Source: a virus. From it: a stretch of DNA of 32,283 bases. Positions within the stretch are counted from its first letter, which is position 1; the number at the start of each line of letters is the position of its first letter. Shown here piece by piece: positions 1 through 32,283 of the stretch. A model generated the notes under the pieces. The model saw only the letters and a list, made by a program, of their open reading frames with translations, was not told where the DNA came from and made no database searches. The stretch covers positions 1 to 32,283 of the IMG/VR virus record IMGVR_UViG_3300027849_000035; one strand, 5' to 3'. The position numbers and the translations under genes are program-made.

Positions 1-693
1 TAAGAATGAACCTCCTGCACCTGTGATAGTTCCTGTAACTACTAAGTCTCCTGTTACTTCTGCTCCTGTATTTGTGGTTTCAAATCTTTTAGTTCCATTA
101 TAATATAAATCAACTTGTGCATCTACTATTGCTTGAATAGAAAACTCACTTGTTCCATTTTTAATTAATCTCCATTGATTTGTATATGTGTGATTGACTG
201 TTCCACCAGTTGATTGTATATAATTATTTGAACCATCAAAATAAATAGATAAATCTGCTGAATTACCCATTAAGATTTTAGAAGTATCAGTAAACGTAAT
301 GTCATCCCCTGCACTTACAGCTATGTCTTTTCCACTTGTTGTATTTCCAAATCCTAATACTTCTGTTAATGTATCTGTTTGTGAAAATTTAGTGTCTACA
401 TACAGTTTAACTGCTGCACTTGTTGGTAGTGATGTATTATTATCAAAGTTTTCTAAACCATCAGTAGAAGTTACATAACGAGTTATAGTAACACCTGTGC
501 CTGTATCTTTTAATGAACCCCATTCTAAAATATTAGAAACCTTAAAATCCCCTGCTGTGTTTAAATAAAGACCTGATTGATTTCCTGAACCATCAGTTAA
601 TTCTTTTAACGTTGCAGATATTGCAGCATTATCAATAGTCTTTAAAAGACCTTCATAAGTCTTCGATATTTTTGTGTTAAATAATGTTGCCAT
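1..693 (-). CDS. Tail fibre protein, N-terminal part (continues across contig end)
   Basis: Reads from ATG at 693 to the left edge without a stop: 231 codons starting MATLFNTKISKTYEGLLKT. The N-terminus has a helical stretch with KTIDNAAISATLKELTDG, then a segment (SAAVKLYVDTKF) that resembles fibre proteins of marine phages. It then enters the first copy of a roughly 75-residue repeat containing ADLSIYFDGSNNYIQ and DLYYNGTKRFETTNTGAEVTG. The left edge encodes ITGAGGSFL, and the right end of the window encodes ITGSGGSFLPL in the same frame. Joining the ends gives one gene of about 1478 aa that finishes at 28396. As the N-terminal portion, this part probably attaches the fibre to the tail or baseplate (inference). 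Confidence 0.85.
   Translation of the reverse strand, partial: MATLFNTKISKTYEGLLKTIDNAAISATLKELTDGSGNQSGLYLNTAGDFKVSNILEWGSLKDTGTGVTITRYVTSTDGLENFDNNTSLPTSAAVKLYVDTKFSQTDTLTEVLGFGNTTSGKDIAVSAGDDITFTDTSKILMGNSADLSIYFDGSNNYIQSTGGTVNHTYTNQWRLIKNGTSEFSIQAIVDAQVDLYYNGTKRFETTNTGAEVTGDLVVTGTITGAGGSFL
19..144. repeat. Terminal direct repeat, left copy
   Basis: Positions 19-144 are identical to 32158-32283 (126 bp). Positions 1-18 also align to 32140-32157 with three mismatches (10, 13, 18), of which one changes the encoded residue (Ala to Ser in a Gly-rich linker). Both copies lie in the fibre gene in the same frame. The simplest reading is the assembly overlap of a circular or circularly permuted genome. 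A true internal duplication of fibre sequence is the alternative. Confidence 0.9.
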
Positions 694-14710: not shown

Positions 14711-15865
14711 TTAGTGTAGTGTATATTTACCGAAATTAGGTTTGCTTAGAACTGAATATGTAGCATATCGTATAGCATCAATTAAGTGGTTATTTTTATC
14801 AATAGGTTTATTAATCATTTTTCCACTTCTGTCTTCTTGCCATTTGTAGTTTCTGAATTCCTGTATTGCATTATGGCTATCTTTTAAGATATGTATTTTA
14901 AAGCGTTTTAACAAATCTATTCCTGCGTTTACACTATCAGCACCTTTTAAACTTGGTCGTACATTCCAACCCATCCTACGCAGTTCTTCAATCAATCTAG
15001 GTTCGGCACTATCAAAGTAAATTGTTTCTCGTTCTATTCCCACCTGTTTCCATTTCTTATGAATATCTATTGTGGTCATTTGGGTTTGATATAAATGTTC
15101 TTGAATATACAAATCATATTCTTTTCTGTAAACACCTACCAAAGTTGTAGGGTCATTTGTATATCCTGCATCTGCACCAAAACTGATAAATTCTGCATCA
15201 TTAGGAATTTGATTTACTTCAATATAATTAAAGATGGTAGACCTACTAGTTCCTTTAATACCTAATCCATAGATTTGCCAATACTGTTCATCAGTATCTT
15301 TTAGCCTTTCAATTTCTTCTTTAATTGTATCACTAAGGAAGCTGTTATCCAAATAAGTAGTAATATTAAAATCGGCATCTTTTCTTGGTATTACCTTGTC
15401 ATAAATCCAATGGTATTCATCTGATGGATTAAAGTCAAGAATTATTTTATCTTCTGTTCTAAATACCAACTGTTGCCAATCTTCATAATCTAATTCATTT
15501 GCTTCATTGATAAAAAGCAGGTGTCTTTTCCTACCTCTAACTTTTTGAGGTTGGTCTAATGAGATGAACTCAATTAGGTTTCCATTTAATTTGTATTCGT
15601 GATTTGATTTATTATGATTGTCTTCAAAATAAGACTTATGTAATTTTAGTATATCAAAAAAATCCCTCATTACAGAAGCACGAACTGATGGAAATGTTTT
15701 CCTACATATTGTAATTGTCTTACCCCTGTTCTTTAGGCAGTAGTGAAATATAATGTATAGCAGTATGTTGTAGGTCTTTCCTGACCTAGTTCCACCTTGT
15801 TCTATAGATATCTTTTTATCTGTTCTTAAAAGGTGCTTAAAAACACTATTTGTCTTTATTTTCAA
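14711..15865 (-). CDS. terL: Terminase large subunit
   Basis: 384 aa, PBSX-type (Terminase_3). Walker A GGTRSGKT at 24-31, Walker B HLLFINEANE at 115-124, coupling motif DFNPSDEYHW at 144-153. C-terminal RNase H-like nuclease with acidic residues at D232 (FGADAGYTNDPTT), D285 (IYFDSAEP) and D363 (NNHLIDAIRY). It pumps DNA into proheads through the portal and cuts concatemers. Overlaps the small subunit gene by 20 nt. Packaging strategy cannot be read from sequence alone, though the seemingly circular contig suits headful packaging or permuted ends. Confidence 0.96.
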   Translation of the reverse strand: MKIKTNSVFKHLLRTDKKISIEQGGTRSGKTYNILLYIIFHYCLKNRGKTITICRKTFPSVRASVMRDFFDILKLHKSYFEDNHNKSNHEYKLNGNLIEFISLDQPQKVRGRKRHLLFINEANELDYEDWQQLVFRTEDKIILDFNPSDEYHWIYDKVIPRKDADFNITTYLDNSFLSDTIKEEIERLKDTDEQYWQIYGLGIKGTSRSTIFNYIEVNQIPNDAEFISFGADAGYTNDPTTLVGVYRKEYDLYIQEHLYQTQMTTIDIHKKWKQVGIERETIYFDSAEPRLIEELRRMGWNVRPSLKGADSVNAGIDLLKRFKIHILKDSHNAIQEFRNYKWQEDRSGKMINKPIDKNNHLIDAIRYATYSVLSKPNFGKYTLH

Positions 15866-16199
15866 TTATTTCTATTTCAAAATGTGTAGGCATTCCATCT
15901 GCTCCTGTTATTTCTTGTCTTTCAACATAACCCCTTTTCTTACCTTTTGTCTTTAGGTAGAATATTGTAGCTGCAGTTGAATCAGCTGCAATCTGTTTAT
16001 GTAATTGGCTTTCTGCAAAATCTAAAGCTACGTTTTCTATTTCCTGAACTGCCATTGCAAACATCTCATCTTCATTTAGCCATTTGTAATATGTGCTTCT
16101 TGGTATGTCTGCTTTCTTACAAGCTACTGTAACAACTCCTAGGCTTTGTTCTAGTGCTGCTAATAGTGATTCCTTTTTTATGTGTCTACTTTCGTTCAT
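15846..16199 (-). CDS. terS: Terminase small subunit
   Basis: 117 aa. N-terminal helix-turn-helix: SLLAALEQSLGVVTVACKKA followed by DIPRSTYYKWLNEDE, then a helix-rich oligomerisation part (AVQEIENVALDFAESQLHKQ) and a C-terminal KTKGKKRGYVERQEITG motif common in TerS of this type. Recognises the packaging site and hands DNA to TerL. Overlaps the dioxygenase gene by 14 nt and TerL by 20 nt. Confidence 0.9.
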   Translation of the reverse strand: MNESRHIKKESLLAALEQSLGVVTVACKKADIPRSTYYKWLNEDEMFAMAVQEIENVALDFAESQLHKQIAADSTAATIFYLKTKGKKRGYVERQEITGADGMPTHFEIEIIENKDK

Positions 16200-17028
16200 T
16201 GTTTTTTGGGTTTATTTTGTTCTTCCTTTTAACTGCCCTTTCCCTTTTCTTTATATTTAACCTTGTTACTTCTTCTTTATAAGGGTAACAATGTTTTAAT
16301 TGTGCTAAAGTATAATAAACGATACTTGCCCTGTAAAAATCTTCTTTGTAAGGTCTTAAAGGCATAACTCCGTGGATTTCTTCTTGCCCTTTGAATATAC
16401 ATAAAGCACCATCAGATTGTTCTAAAGCAATTCTATATTCAGGTAAAACCAATTCGCCACCATTGCAATGTTCTTTTAAAATTAACACATTGCTAAAACT
16501 TCCTTTTATATTACCACTATCTTTATGGTATTTAATTGCGTGGTTTACGTTTATATTTGCAGTAGTGTAAGGTGTATCAACTAACCTGTAATCATTATCT
16601 ACAATTTCCTGAACCTTTTTCAAATCATATTCGTACAATTCAGGCAGGTGTTTTTTATATATGCTACAAAGTGTTTCTTGAAATGTAAATAGTTTATTAA
16701 AGTTTTTCTTTTCTTCTATTGTTTTATTACTGAACCTACAAAAGTCATTTCTTAAAGCTATTCTAGGTAATGCACCAAAAACACTTGACTTAGTTGGCAA
16801 TGCCAAATGTGTCCTATATGTTTCTACATATTTTGTTTCCTTTGCTGCTTCCCTTACATAACTTAGTAATTCCTTATCAACATTTATATATATTCCTATA
16901 CACTCACCATTTAAATAAAATGACGTATCACCTTTTATTACTTCATCATAATCATTTTTGCTAGGTGTATTTTGTAATAAGCCACTACAATCTTGGTGCT
17001 TTGTTAGGTCAAACCTTTTCATTTTCAA
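16186..17028 (-). CDS. TET/JBP-like 2-oxoglutarate/Fe(II) dioxygenase
   Basis: 280 aa. The C-terminal half has the double-stranded beta-helix iron site: H168-K-D170 (IKYHKDSGN), distal H219 (EEIHGVMPL) and R233 (FYRASIVYY) for 2-oxoglutarate. Also FGALPRIALRNDFCRFS at 84-100 and CNGGELVLPEYRIAL at 188-202, blocks shared with phage members of the TET/JBP family, which hydroxylate methyl groups on pyrimidines in DNA. The last 25 residues are very basic, fit for DNA contact. It lies between a ParB-like gene and the terminases, an arrangement described for phage TET/JBP genes. No DNA methyltransferase is present, so the substrate could be host-made 5-methylcytosine or thymine itself. Start could also be the second ATG (17022). 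Confidence 0.75.
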   Translation of the reverse strand: MKMKRFDLTKHQDCSGLLQNTPSKNDYDEVIKGDTSFYLNGECIGIYINVDKELLSYVREAAKETKYVETYRTHLALPTKSSVFGALPRIALRNDFCRFSNKTIEEKKNFNKLFTFQETLCSIYKKHLPELYEYDLKKVQEIVDNDYRLVDTPYTTANINVNHAIKYHKDSGNIKGSFSNVLILKEHCNGGELVLPEYRIALEQSDGALCIFKGQEEIHGVMPLRPYKEDFYRASIVYYTLAQLKHCYPYKEEVTRLNIKKRERAVKRKNKINPKNNERK

Positions 17029-17599
17029 GAATTTTATATATTAATGTTCTGTAATCTTCACAATTATATTTTAAAAGTAATTTTTCTAACCTATCAACAA
17101 CATCACCAAATTCTTCGTTTTCAAATGGGATAGTAATATTCTTTATTTTAGCATCTAAAAACCTATTTAACTTTTCTTCTGCAGTATTTAAACTGTAATC
17201 AGTATTATTACTAACTTCTTCTTCAGGTTGCCAAACATCTAACCCCCATTCTTTCAATTCTACATTTTCAAAAGCATTTGCAAGTGCATCCCAATCCCAA
17301 TCTCCAAAACCCACATTATCTTTAATAATAAATTCTTGTGCTTGTTTGTCATTTAAATCTGCTGCCTGTATAATATAGACTTCTTTTAGCCCAAGTTCCT
17401 TACAAGCCTTGTAACGCATATTACCACCCAAAATAACATTGTCCTTATCAACTACAATTGGTCTGAGTGATAACATCTCAGGAAACTCCCTTACACTATT
17501 AACAAGTTTTTGAAACTTATGTTTGTTTATTGTTCTAGGATTTGCAGCATTTTCTGTTATTGATGATATGCTGACCTTTTCTATTTTAGCTTTAATCAT
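17009..17599 (-). CDS. ParB/Srx-like nuclease-domain protein
   Basis: 196 aa. N-terminal ParB-like domain: SISSITENAANPRTINKHKF, LSLRPIVVDKDNVILGGNMR, YKACKELGLKEVYIIQAADL and QAQEFIIKDNVGFGDWDWDA. The GGNMRYKA and NVGFGDWDWD motifs are those of ParB-like proteins of phages, often linked with DNA modification enzymes and terminases. No methyltransferase domain follows; residues 130-196 are acidic and helical. Likely binds DNA near the terminase or guides the dioxygenase encoded next to it (20-nt overlap). True chromosome-partitioning function is unlikely. Confidence 0.85.
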   Translation of the reverse strand: MIKAKIEKVSISSITENAANPRTINKHKFQKLVNSVREFPEMLSLRPIVVDKDNVILGGNMRYKACKELGLKEVYIIQAADLNDKQAQEFIIKDNVGFGDWDWDALANAFENVELKEWGLDVWQPEEEVSNNTDYSLNTAEEKLNRFLDAKIKNITIPFENEEFGDVVDRLEKLLLKYNCEDYRTLIYKILENEKV

Positions 17600-17944: not shown

Positions 17945-18520
17945 TTACCAATGCATATCATTCATAGACGTACCACTTTCTATAATCTCACATTTGTCTT
18001 TTGATTTCCAACTCCAAGATTTTTTTAATAAATTAACTCGTTCAATAACCTCATCAATTTTATCTTTTGGTATGTCTTTAAAAAGAAATAGTAATCTATC
18101 ATAATCGGTTGTAGGGTTTTGTTTCTGTGCCTTTATTGATTTAATATCTTTTTTTAATTTTTGATTTTTTTCTGAAAGTTTTCTATATTCATTTTGAAGA
18201 TAATGTATTCTATCTATTTCATCATAATTTAAATCACTTTTAAATTGAAAGCAGGATTCTAATTCAGCAAGTTCAATGTTTGATTTTTTATAAATAGGGT
18301 ACATTTTAACAAGATGTATTACTGATGCGTGATCTGTTTTTTTACCCATTGAAGTAAAAAAGTTAGCTATGTTAGTCCATCTCATATTCATTTTGTTTCT
18401 AAAGATATGACAAGCCAATGCCCTTAGCTCTACATATTCTCGTTTTCTAGTATTTTTGAATATATCAATGCCTGTTATTTCAACAATACGTTCTGATATT
18501 TTTAAATAGTTTTTATTCAT
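17945..18520 (-). CDS. DnaA domain IV-like DNA-binding protein
   Basis: 191 aa. Residues about 20-78 match the DnaA C-terminal helix-turn-helix: RKREYVELRALACHIFRNKM, then TNIANFF, and the signature GKKTDHASVIHLVKMYPIYK. No AAA domain is present. The rest is a long coiled coil (YLQNEYRKLSEKNQKLKKDI) with a basic tail. Such orphan DnaA-domain proteins in phages may bind DnaA boxes to start phage replication or to block the host (inference). Its start overlaps the DUF3310 gene by 8 nt. Confidence 0.75.
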   Translation of the reverse strand: MNKNYLKISERIVEITGIDIFKNTRKREYVELRALACHIFRNKMNMRWTNIANFFTSMGKKTDHASVIHLVKMYPIYKKSNIELAELESCFQFKSDLNYDEIDRIHYLQNEYRKLSEKNQKLKKDIKSIKAQKQNPTTDYDRLLFLFKDIPKDKIDEVIERVNLLKKSWSWKSKDKCEIIESGTSMNDMHW

Positions 18521-19435: not shown

Positions 19436-20287
19436 TTAAATTCCACAATGACCACTATCACAATCGTTAAAATCATCATCAAATAATTCTGTTTGTTTTA
19501 AACTTTTTTTTATGTCTTTGTATTTCACACCATTTTTAAAAGTCCGTTTACCATCTCCATTTTCCTCTGAATCAATAAACCATTGAAATTTGTTTGGATG
19601 CTTTTCACTCATATGTTTTAATAAAATTGGAGACCTATGAAAACAACCAACACAATTATTTAAATAAGCAAATCTTACATTTTTGCCTTCCCAATAATTT
19701 TCAATAGAATCTTTAAAAGTTGGATTATCAATTAAAGGAAATTTAGGTTTTTGCCATTCTATGTTTGACCAACTATTTTGATTGCCATTTTTAGTTCTTC
19801 CTGTAATTGTTTTAAATTCTGAATTTCCATTTTTATTAGTTTTTTCAATCATTGTTTTTGCCCTTCTTTGTTCGTTGGCTCTAAACCCTATTCTCATTTC
19901 AACAACTTCATTTATTTCTTTTCTCCACCAATCAAAAATAGGTTGCAGCTTCATTTCAGTAGTACAAAATCTTTGAGTAACATTTGGCAAATATCTTTTA
20001 CCTTTTCGTACTGTTATTTCATCAAAAGTTTTACCTGTAACCCAATCAATTTTAGAGCCTATAAACTGTTCTAAGTCTAACATTGTATAAATAATCATAT
20101 CTTCTTCTAAAGTACCTATAAATTCAGTTCCTAACCTATCAGAAACTTCTTGTCTTATTTTAGCATCAGGGAACAAACATTTTTTGTCATCTGTTCTAAC
20201 TAAAGAAAATACATTATAATCAGCAGGGTAATTTGCTGCAATGTAACTTGATGTTTTACCACCACTTAAACTGTTTACTGTTTTCAT
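19436..20287 (-). CDS. PAPS reductase-like PP-loop enzyme
   Basis: 283 aa. PP-loop SGGKTSS at 8-14 directly after the start (MKTVNSLSGGKTSSYIAANY), then VFSLVRTDDKKCLF, a Cys in RFCTTEMKLQPIFDWW, RIGFRANEQRRAKT, and NNCVGCFHRSPILLKHMSEK with two Cys, plus a C-terminal CDSGHCG. This is the adenine nucleotide alpha-hydrolase / PAPS reductase-like fold (COG0175). In phages such enzymes may serve in sulfur transfer to DNA or tRNA, or in cysteine supply; substrate not visible. The Cys set could carry an iron-sulfur cluster or a persulfide. ATGA overlap with the preceding gene. Confidence 0.8.
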   Translation of the reverse strand: MKTVNSLSGGKTSSYIAANYPADYNVFSLVRTDDKKCLFPDAKIRQEVSDRLGTEFIGTLEEDMIIYTMLDLEQFIGSKIDWVTGKTFDEITVRKGKRYLPNVTQRFCTTEMKLQPIFDWWRKEINEVVEMRIGFRANEQRRAKTMIEKTNKNGNSEFKTITGRTKNGNQNSWSNIEWQKPKFPLIDNPTFKDSIENYWEGKNVRFAYLNNCVGCFHRSPILLKHMSEKHPNKFQWFIDSEENGDGKRTFKNGVKYKDIKKSLKQTELFDDDFNDCDSGHCGI

Positions 20288-31300: not shown

Positions 31301-32283
31301 GCTCCATTAGCACTAGCAATAATCATATTTTCAGCACCATCAGATTCTATTCTTACAGTATTAGATGAAATTTTTAAATCTCCTGTCCCTGAATCTTTAA
31401 GGTATGAATGCGAACCATCGTGATAAACCTCTAATCCATCACTAGCTGTTCCATAAATAGACTTTACATTATCATTGTGGATAGTATCGCCTGTCATTGT
31501 TCCACCAATCAAAGGTAGAAAAGAACCACCTGCTCCAGTAATCGTGCCTGTTACTTCTAAATTACCTGTAACTTTTGCTCCTGCTGAAACTGTTTCTAAT
31601 CTTTTTGTTCCATCATAATAAAACTCGTTTGCTCCATCTGTCAAAAATCTTGCTAAATATTCAGAATTTTCTTTTTGTAAATTAACACCTGTACCATTAC
31701 TTGTAATGTTTAAATCTCCTGTTCCATTATCTACAATAAAAGAATTACTTCCATCGTGATATATCTGTAAGTCAGACCCTGCACCGAATAAGGCTTTTCC
31801 ATTATCTACAAAAGTTGCATTTGCTCCTACTGTTACATTTGTTGTAGTAGATAAAGCACCTGTAATTGATACACCTGTGCTTGTAGTTCCTAGTTTATCA
31901 TAATTGTTATGAGATAAAATTACTGCCCCATCTTCAAAAGCACGAATCATTGTTTCGCCACCGTTTGCAGACCTTAATTTAAAAGCACTTGTATCAATTA
32001 TTAAACTTCCTATTCCTATATCTTGTATATAGCTATTATTACCATCGTGATAGATTTGTAAATCAGAGCCTGTTCCATAAATAGACTTTACACTATCAGC
32101 GTGTAAAGTATCGCCTGTCATAGTACCCCCTGCAAGTGGTAAGAATGAGCCACCTGAACCTGTGATAGTTCCTGTAACTACTAAGTCTCCTGTTACTTCT
32201 GCTCCTGTATTTGTGGTTTCAAATCTTTTAGTTCCATTATAATATAAATCAACTTGTGCATCTACTATTGCTTGAATAGAAAA
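28396..32283 (-). CDS. Tail fibre protein with S74 chaperone domain (C-terminal part)
   Basis: Open to the right edge; 1296 codons here, continuing with the part at 1-693 if the genome is circular (total about 1478 aa). An ATG at 32121 lies within GGTMTGDT and is internal, not the start. At least four copies of a ~75-residue module (KSIYGTGSDLQIYHDGNNSY..KLGTTSTGVSITG) occur here, plus a fifth at the left end. Then come four GNVGIGT-xSP modules (29100-29850). The end holds a peptidase S74 domain: SDYRLKEDLKDF with self-cleavage Ser at 28681-28683, then YGVMAHELQEVLPDAV and a coiled coil, closing with CKCKN. S74 domains trimerise fibres and cut themselves off. Likely receptor-binding protein. 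Confidence 0.88.
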   Translation of the reverse strand, partial: FSIQAIVDAQVDLYYNGTKRFETTNTGAEVTGDLVVTGTITGSGGSFLPLAGGTMTGDTLHADSVKSIYGTGSDLQIYHDGNNSYIQDIGIGSLIIDTSAFKLRSANGGETMIRAFEDGAVILSHNNYDKLGTTSTGVSITGALSTTTNVTVGANATFVDNGKALFGAGSDLQIYHDGSNSFIVDNGTGDLNITSNGTGVNLQKENSEYLARFLTDGANEFYYDGTKRLETVSAGAKVTGNLEVTGTITGAGGSFLPLIGGTMTGDTIHNDNVKSIYGTASDGLEVYHDGSHSYLKDSGTGDLKISSNTVRIESDGAENMIIASANGAVNLYYNNNQKLATTNAGISVTGNVDATGNVSVLSGQKVNLGNSEELFLTHDSYSILRSSAGSLYIDQAAVTESIVFRTSDANALDTTALIISRNGDLTTGRDVTIAGDLTVNGTTTTVNSQTLAVVDPLIQLAKDNTANSLDIGLYGDYNDGTGRFLGLFSDASDSNKFKLFKGLTVEPTTTVNIGGAGYAAADLELANLVATGNINLADNGKAIFGTGNDLQISHDGSDSFIEDSGTGSLYVTTNAFRLLNPAENSQLITAFEGGEVNLFYNGSTKLATTSTGVSVTGDVNVTGNLSLKSDSAYFNIKRANNTDLGYITDSSTWGDSGTDFSIGASSANLKFYTNNSTAVKLTLDASGNATFAGDVNVGTGLAGTVNVGLTDAYKGVFEYLAAAETNLNIKNTYDGAAAAINFQLRTSGTTVNALTLLGSGNATFAGDVTVATNKYFKSGGNSILGGVASGTEIYGINNKISLFSSAGSAYVTIDSGNVGIGTTTPSAFGKFAVQGVGNLLNLNATSGKVYQGFYENSSSRFYLNTLDGSDGLAFTDADGSSERMRIDSAGNVGIGTDSPSVGLQLGNSTSGETKTAIFNSEGGGEVGLTIQSRTNRAKLRVADNDSNAYVVAEAGKAFFGTSANGDATNITVLTSGNVGIGTTSPLGKLQVTLPAYTNEDTNSQHAIFGVDSGYGVRVGYNETDNKGYINVLQPAVAWGNLVLQSDGGNVGIGTASPSDYDNNADNLVVGTTSGNNGITIASAIAGVSSLYFADGTSGGSQYTGYLEYNHSDNYMRFGTNNGTERMRITSGGEFGFGTSSDTVINGSVYIKAVDAANTVIKVGHKTGSVSGADFTAFYYNNVQIGGVAQSGTTGVSFNTTSDYRLKEDLKDFAGLEMVSKIPVYDFKWKTYEGRSYGVMAHELQEVLPDAVSGEKDAEEIQGVDYSKIVPLLVKSIQELTAKIEKLESENCKCKN
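32158..32283. repeat. Terminal direct repeat, right copy
   Basis: Identical to 19-144; see left copy. The preceding bases 32140-32157 differ from 1-18 at three positions. Confidence 0.9.

Follow-up and report, generated by a model that had tools for sequence, protein, structure and literature searches.

A ParB-like gene and a TET/JBP-type dioxygenase gene next to the terminase genes of a virus genome: a predicted minimal DNA-modification cassette

Phage TET enzymes reportedly act on 5-methylcytosine (5mC), as described by Burke and co-workers in 2021. According to PMC12730594, which cites Burke et al. (2021), the substrate of those phage TETs whose activity has been published is 5mC provided by a phage C5-methyltransferase; gp2 of mycobacteriophage Cooper is a reference TET/JBP protein there. 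The systems of Burke et al. (2021), which combine 5mC-acting TETs with a C5-methyltransferase and glycosyltransferases, share the Pfam family and the presumed chemistry with the protein described here, whereas our searches found neither a C5-methyltransferase nor a TAGT glycosyltransferase in the present genome. JBP1 and JBP2 of kinetoplastids (base J) belong to the same TET/JBP superfamily and share with our protein thymine in DNA as the proposed substrate; the present genome differs from them in having no visible J-binding domain or base-J glucosyltransferase. In the thymidine hypermodification of phages M6 and phiW-14, 5hmdU is supplied by a dUMP hydroxymethylase with a thymidylate-synthase fold, none of which was found here.

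Cassettes joining ParB and TET are already known from actinophage genomes (PMC9302106, PMC11955845). In Gordonia phage CaiB, ParB, TET, a pyrophosphorylase and a kinase precede the terminase (PMC9302106); for Rhodococcus phage Tonitrus, the best isolate match here, thymine oxidation by TET has likewise been proposed, as part of a probable thymidine-hypermodification set (PMC11955845). In CaiB, Gordonia phage CloverMinnie, Tonitrus and Microbacterium phage Matzah, a TET of our lineage follows ParB at once or at a short distance and the terminase comes after it, as in the present locus, and the genomes of CloverMinnie, Tonitrus and Matzah share with it the lack of any detected PF00145 C5-methyltransferase; the identity between our TET and the actinophage TETs is about 25–32%. 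The gp2-type TETs of mycobacteriophages (such as Serendipitous and ChrisnMich) are also Tet_JBP proteins, encoded by gene 2 after a ParB-type gene 1 and upstream of the terminase, but in Serendipitous a TAGT glycosyltransferase, a PIG-L-like deacetylase and a kinase lie in between, none of them present in our locus. The clade analysed here shows only ParB, TET and the small and large terminase subunits (TerS, TerL), and no kinase, TAGT or ADDT-type partner was found in it. Judged by gene content, it thus appears to be a minimal variant of the known ParB+TET cassette, devoid of the actinophage kinase, transferase and glycosyltransferase. A preliminary description of this DNA had treated the ParB-TET-terminase arrangement as odd; this view has to be given up, since the arrangement is widespread in phages and partly published (PMC9302106, PMC11955845).

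The window, that is, the whole stretch of DNA analysed, is a virus record of 32283 bases. Its left end (1..144) repeats its right end (32140..32283) at 141 of 144 bases (blastn of the window ends); both ends fall inside one fibre gene, and their joining gives a single in-frame ORF of 1478 aa. The genes flanking both ends are adjacent, or nearly so, in relatives L008, L031, L035, L039 and L047 and in the isolate Nonlabens phage P12024L. The window probably represents the genome, nearly complete and circular or circularly permuted, of a phage related to this marine flavobacterial phage. Neither the C5-methyltransferase (PF00145) nor the N6/N4-methyltransferase profile (PF01555) matched in the window, and no methyltransferase-like protein was found among its scanned ORFs, in agreement with the preliminary description, in which no such gene was visible. 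Since the ends overlap and their flanking genes are adjacent in relatives, an incomplete genome is an unlikely cause of this absence (extra fibre modules are possible). The window gave no match to the thymidylate-synthase-type hydroxymethylase profile (PF00303) or to the tailoring-gene profiles PF18751 and PF20691 (kinase, TAGT), and no ADDT was found among the scanned ORFs. A PP-loop protein (PAPS-reductase-like, phrog_424) encoded at 19436-20287 (−) could be a further modification enzyme; it is patchy in the window clade (L001, L012, L069, L076, L088).

The dioxygenase gene occupies positions 16186..17022 on the minus strand. Its product matches Pfam Tet_JBP (PF12851) with an E-value of 2.2e-16 and 60 bits against a cut-off of 34.9 (profile search), and the gene was also matched by Tet_JBP in the genome search. 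The AlphaFold model (pLDDT 88.7, pTM 0.83) has TET-family structures as all of its best 26 PDB fold matches (CMD1, CcTet, TET2, NgTET1), followed by DNA/RNA demethylases of the AlkB/FTO type; protein hydroxylases, the structural match that could have spoken against the earlier assignment, are not the best match. The HxD...H iron triad and the distal Arg for 2-oxoglutarate are present, the four residues H168, D170, H219 and R233 are unchanged across an alignment of 44 relatives, and the gene is under purifying selection (dN/dS about 0.04-0.16). As judged from profile, modelled fold and catalytic residues, the protein is a genuine TET/JBP-type Fe(II)/2-oxoglutarate dioxygenase, as first described, and is predicted to oxidise a methylated DNA base. 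The ORF given earlier (16186-17028) was right in its coordinates and in its four catalytic residues, but its start needs revision: the ATG at 17022 (278 aa) is likelier than the TTG at 17028 (280 aa), because with it the TET gene shares 14 bp with the ParB gene, an overlap also present in 62 of 73 window-clade relatives. The name “queuine tRNA-ribosyltransferase,” carried by relatives in PHROG and RefSeq, was rejected, sequence and fold being those of a TET; PHROG 6059 and the RefSeq records of mycobacteriophage gene 2 contain TET-family proteins misannotated in this way.

The neighbouring gene (17009..17599, minus strand) encodes a protein with a ParB N-domain and a helical C-terminus of its own. 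The Pfam ParB_N match (3.7e-8, 33.7 bits against a cut-off of 26.3) bears out its earlier description as ParB-like, and the fold and profile matches of the N-domain are closest to CTP-binding ParB proteins. It shares this nucleotide-binding fold with the chromosome and plasmid ParB proteins that act as CTPase clamps, but differs from them in two elements: the GERR motif, whose Glu is required for CTP hydrolysis in ParB, reads GGNMR and, in the alignment with ParB, has an Asn at that Glu, and no HTH domain, which binds parS in those proteins, was matched in Pfam or fold searches. Since an Asn replaces the hydrolytic Glu, a ParB-clamp mode of action is uncertain. The ParB gene evolves faster than the TET gene. 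Between the window (16186-17599) and relative L001 (1968-3369), dS is 0.27 for TET and 1.31 for the adjacent ParB gene, a contrast which suggests that TET alone may have been recently exchanged between phages. Upstream of ParB, the product of 17945-18520 (−) shows a weak DnaA-type C-terminal HTH, below the Pfam cut-off, and then a probable coiled coil.

Scans of IMG/VR provided first 21 and later 80 relatives of the window TET, 80 actinophage-like ones and 19 + 80 of a second type; no TET relatives were found in bacterial and archaeal genomes sampled at one per species. The tree splits the phage TETs into two lineages with 100/99 support. In that of the window, HxD+3 is Asn and Arg+8 is Leu, with Met, Ile or Lys as rare variants; one of the search patterns favored L/I at Arg+8. 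The other lineage, which includes P12024L and large phages, has Asp and Arg at these positions. A ParB gene lies upstream of TET in all 160 loci of the window lineage with enough upstream sequence, overlapping it in 149, and in 0 of 94 loci of the Asp/Arg lineage, a contrast to be counted as a single split in the tree and not as 160 independent events. The Asp/Arg TETs share with ours the Tet_JBP family and the lack of a C5-methyltransferase (0/50 records), but lie beside a kinase, ADDT or TAGT. In larger phages, those of L206 (3210-6881), L224 (7497-12139), L194 and L257 neighbour ADDT, glutamine amidotransferase, P-loop kinase or TAGT genes, and neither a C5-methyltransferase nor a thymidylate-synthase-type gene was found with this group.

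A C5-methyltransferase (PF00145) was found in 6/46 window-clade records, 7/33 actinophage-like records and 0/8 isolate phages, the last including six ParB-TET actinophages whose genomes are deposited as complete. Two sets, of 43 and 30 records, contained no thymidylate-synthase-type hydroxymethylase (PF00303) scoring over the cut-off, and neither kinase nor TAGT was found in the window clade. One relative, L082 (9868-11719), has a C5-cytosine methyltransferase gene inserted directly between TET and TerS, so that some members may make 5mC. In Prochlorococcus phage MED4-184 (L029:7791-11578), ParB is followed by an FkbM-type methyltransferase, TET comes next and probable terminase genes come last; this cyanophage thus has another kind of tailoring gene at that place in the cassette.

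As initially described, the pair sits just before the terminase genes. The end of the TET gene overlaps by 14 bp the gene for TerS (15846..16199, minus strand; phrog_4044/309/4102), whose order is kept in relatives, and TerL follows at 14711..15865 (minus strand; Pfam Terminase_3 and Terminase_3C, about 1e-22). A large terminase is found within 4.5 kb downstream of TET in all 52 loci of the window clade (within 500 bp in 39) and in 62 of 77 loci of the actinophage-like clade. The large terminases next to ParB-TET belong to four unrelated families (Terminase_3, Terminase_6, TerL_ATPase and GpA), and there are cases in which the TETs are about 80% identical and the large terminases only 22-24%. 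ParB-TET thus keeps its place beside packaging genes that are themselves exchanged, and therefore the idea of a link to packaging amounts to more than an accident of a single genome. The earlier proposal that modification is tied to packaging holds as to gene order, conserved across relatives and four terminase families; judged by this order, the two processes may be coupled in mechanism.

Kinase/ADDT-type enzymes reportedly act on 5-hydroxymethyluridine in DNA, as described by Lee and co-workers in 2022. To our knowledge, no chemistry has been described for any member of the ParB-linked TET lineage. In M6-like phages, enzymes of the ADDT and P-loop kinase type act on 5hmdU already in DNA (PMC6449724), and in actinophages ParB-TET is accompanied by P-loop kinase 3 and ADDT; in CloverMinnie and Tonitrus, ADDT (annotated aGPT-Pplase2 in Tonitrus) and a P-loop kinase come after the pair. 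As these actinophages have no detected hydroxymethylase or methyltransferase, TET acting on thymine would be their only visible source of 5-hydroxymethyluracil, if this base is made. Because C5-methyltransferases are rare and patchy among relatives and hydroxymethylases absent, conversion of thymine to 5-hydroxymethyluracil is the best-supported though unproved reaction; among the substrates left open by the preliminary description, thymine is favored on these grounds and by the thymine-type tailoring genes. The actinophage argument is transferred to the window clade across about 30% identity, since this clade shows neither kinase nor TAGT, and for the same reason the 5-hydroxymethyl base, should the reaction be shared, may receive no further change there. 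Alternatively, TET could oxidise 5mC, placed by host methyltransferases or an unrecognised enzyme, to 5hmC, with which the phage would escape host restriction or modification-dependent nucleases. The published phage TET activity is on 5mC (PMC12730594), and the Asn at HxD+3 of the window lineage corresponds to TET2 N1387, which contacts the N4 group of 5mC (PMC7854593), so that this residue is compatible with 5mC; a C5-methyltransferase also accompanies TET in a few relatives, once inside the cassette. Against this, most relatives and the six actinophage genomes deposited as complete keep TET and lack a detected C5-methyltransferase, host-made 5mC would differ between hosts, and Leu 241 occupies the alignment position of the His with which TET2 and NgTET1 bind N3 of 5mC (PMC7854593); we consider action on 5mC rather unlikely. 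Reading Asn/Leu as a thymine signature, as against the Asp/Arg of 5mC-acting CMD1, was rejected: the Asp/Arg lineage is also devoid of C5-methyltransferases and lies beside ADDT and kinase genes, and therefore the residue split fails to separate thymine from 5mC. It is highly improbable that ParB-TET erases marks, oxidising host- or phage-made 5mC or 6mA to leave packaged DNA unmarked; structures of CcTet, one of the top fold matches, have been solved with 6mA DNA and with 5mC DNA, and N6/N4-methyltransferases exceed the cut-off in 7/43 relative records, but such genes are patchy there, neither they nor C5-methyltransferases were found in the window, and ParB-TET is constant. Activity on protein, free nucleotide or RNA would fit the versatility of 2-oxoglutarate oxygenases, DNA activity being here a prediction; with TET-family structures and then AlkB/FTO nucleic-acid demethylases as best fold matches, and relatives located with the DNA-base tailoring genes ADDT, P-loop kinase 3 and TAGT, it is barely credible.

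Taken as a whole, the reading that we prefer, at close to an even chance, is that of a DNA-modification pair acting on thymine, late in infection and tied to packaging. The ParB-like and TET genes would be expressed together with the packaging genes, and TET, with Fe(II), O2 and 2-oxoglutarate, would act on the phage's own DNA after its replication, hydroxylating a pyrimidine there at its 5-methyl group. This pyrimidine would most likely be thymine, which carries a 5-methyl group from the outset, so that 5-hydroxymethyluracil would arise in situ with no need of a methyltransferase. From the constant gene pairing we infer that the ParB-like protein, binding DNA or nucleotide, could be a targeting or loading partner of TET; modification would then occur late, just before or during packaging, and the modified genome would be protected from host nucleases. 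The same DNA reaction is compatible with ParB and terminase being neighbours merely as late genes, the ParB-like protein serving in segregation, regulation or as a nuclease. Late genes commonly cluster in phages, their order may reflect only shared expression, ParB evolves faster than its partner, and the Asp/Arg TETs of large phages work with no ParB and away from the terminase; on the other hand, the pair stays overlapped and beside the terminase while the large terminase is swapped for unrelated families, and we regard the late-gene account as a possible but somewhat doubtful one. The most specific form of the thymine reading is a two-gene phage counterpart of JBP, in which a ParB-like protein devoid of the catalytic Glu and HTH would load TET near the packaging site, and thymines would be hydroxylated in the polymer during packaging, with neither a methyltransferase nor a modified nucleotide pool; in this complete form we hold it to be rather unlikely.

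If thymine hydroxylation in DNA were true, these phages would possess a route to 5-hydroxymethyluracil without a methyltransferase or a hydroxymethylated nucleotide pool, and JBP and base J would have a parallel in bacterial viruses. The minimal ParB-TET pair, free of the downstream tailoring of actinophages, would be a clean system in which to study base choice and its direction by ParB, and its pairing with unrelated terminases would make it possible to test directly for a tie between base modification and packaging.
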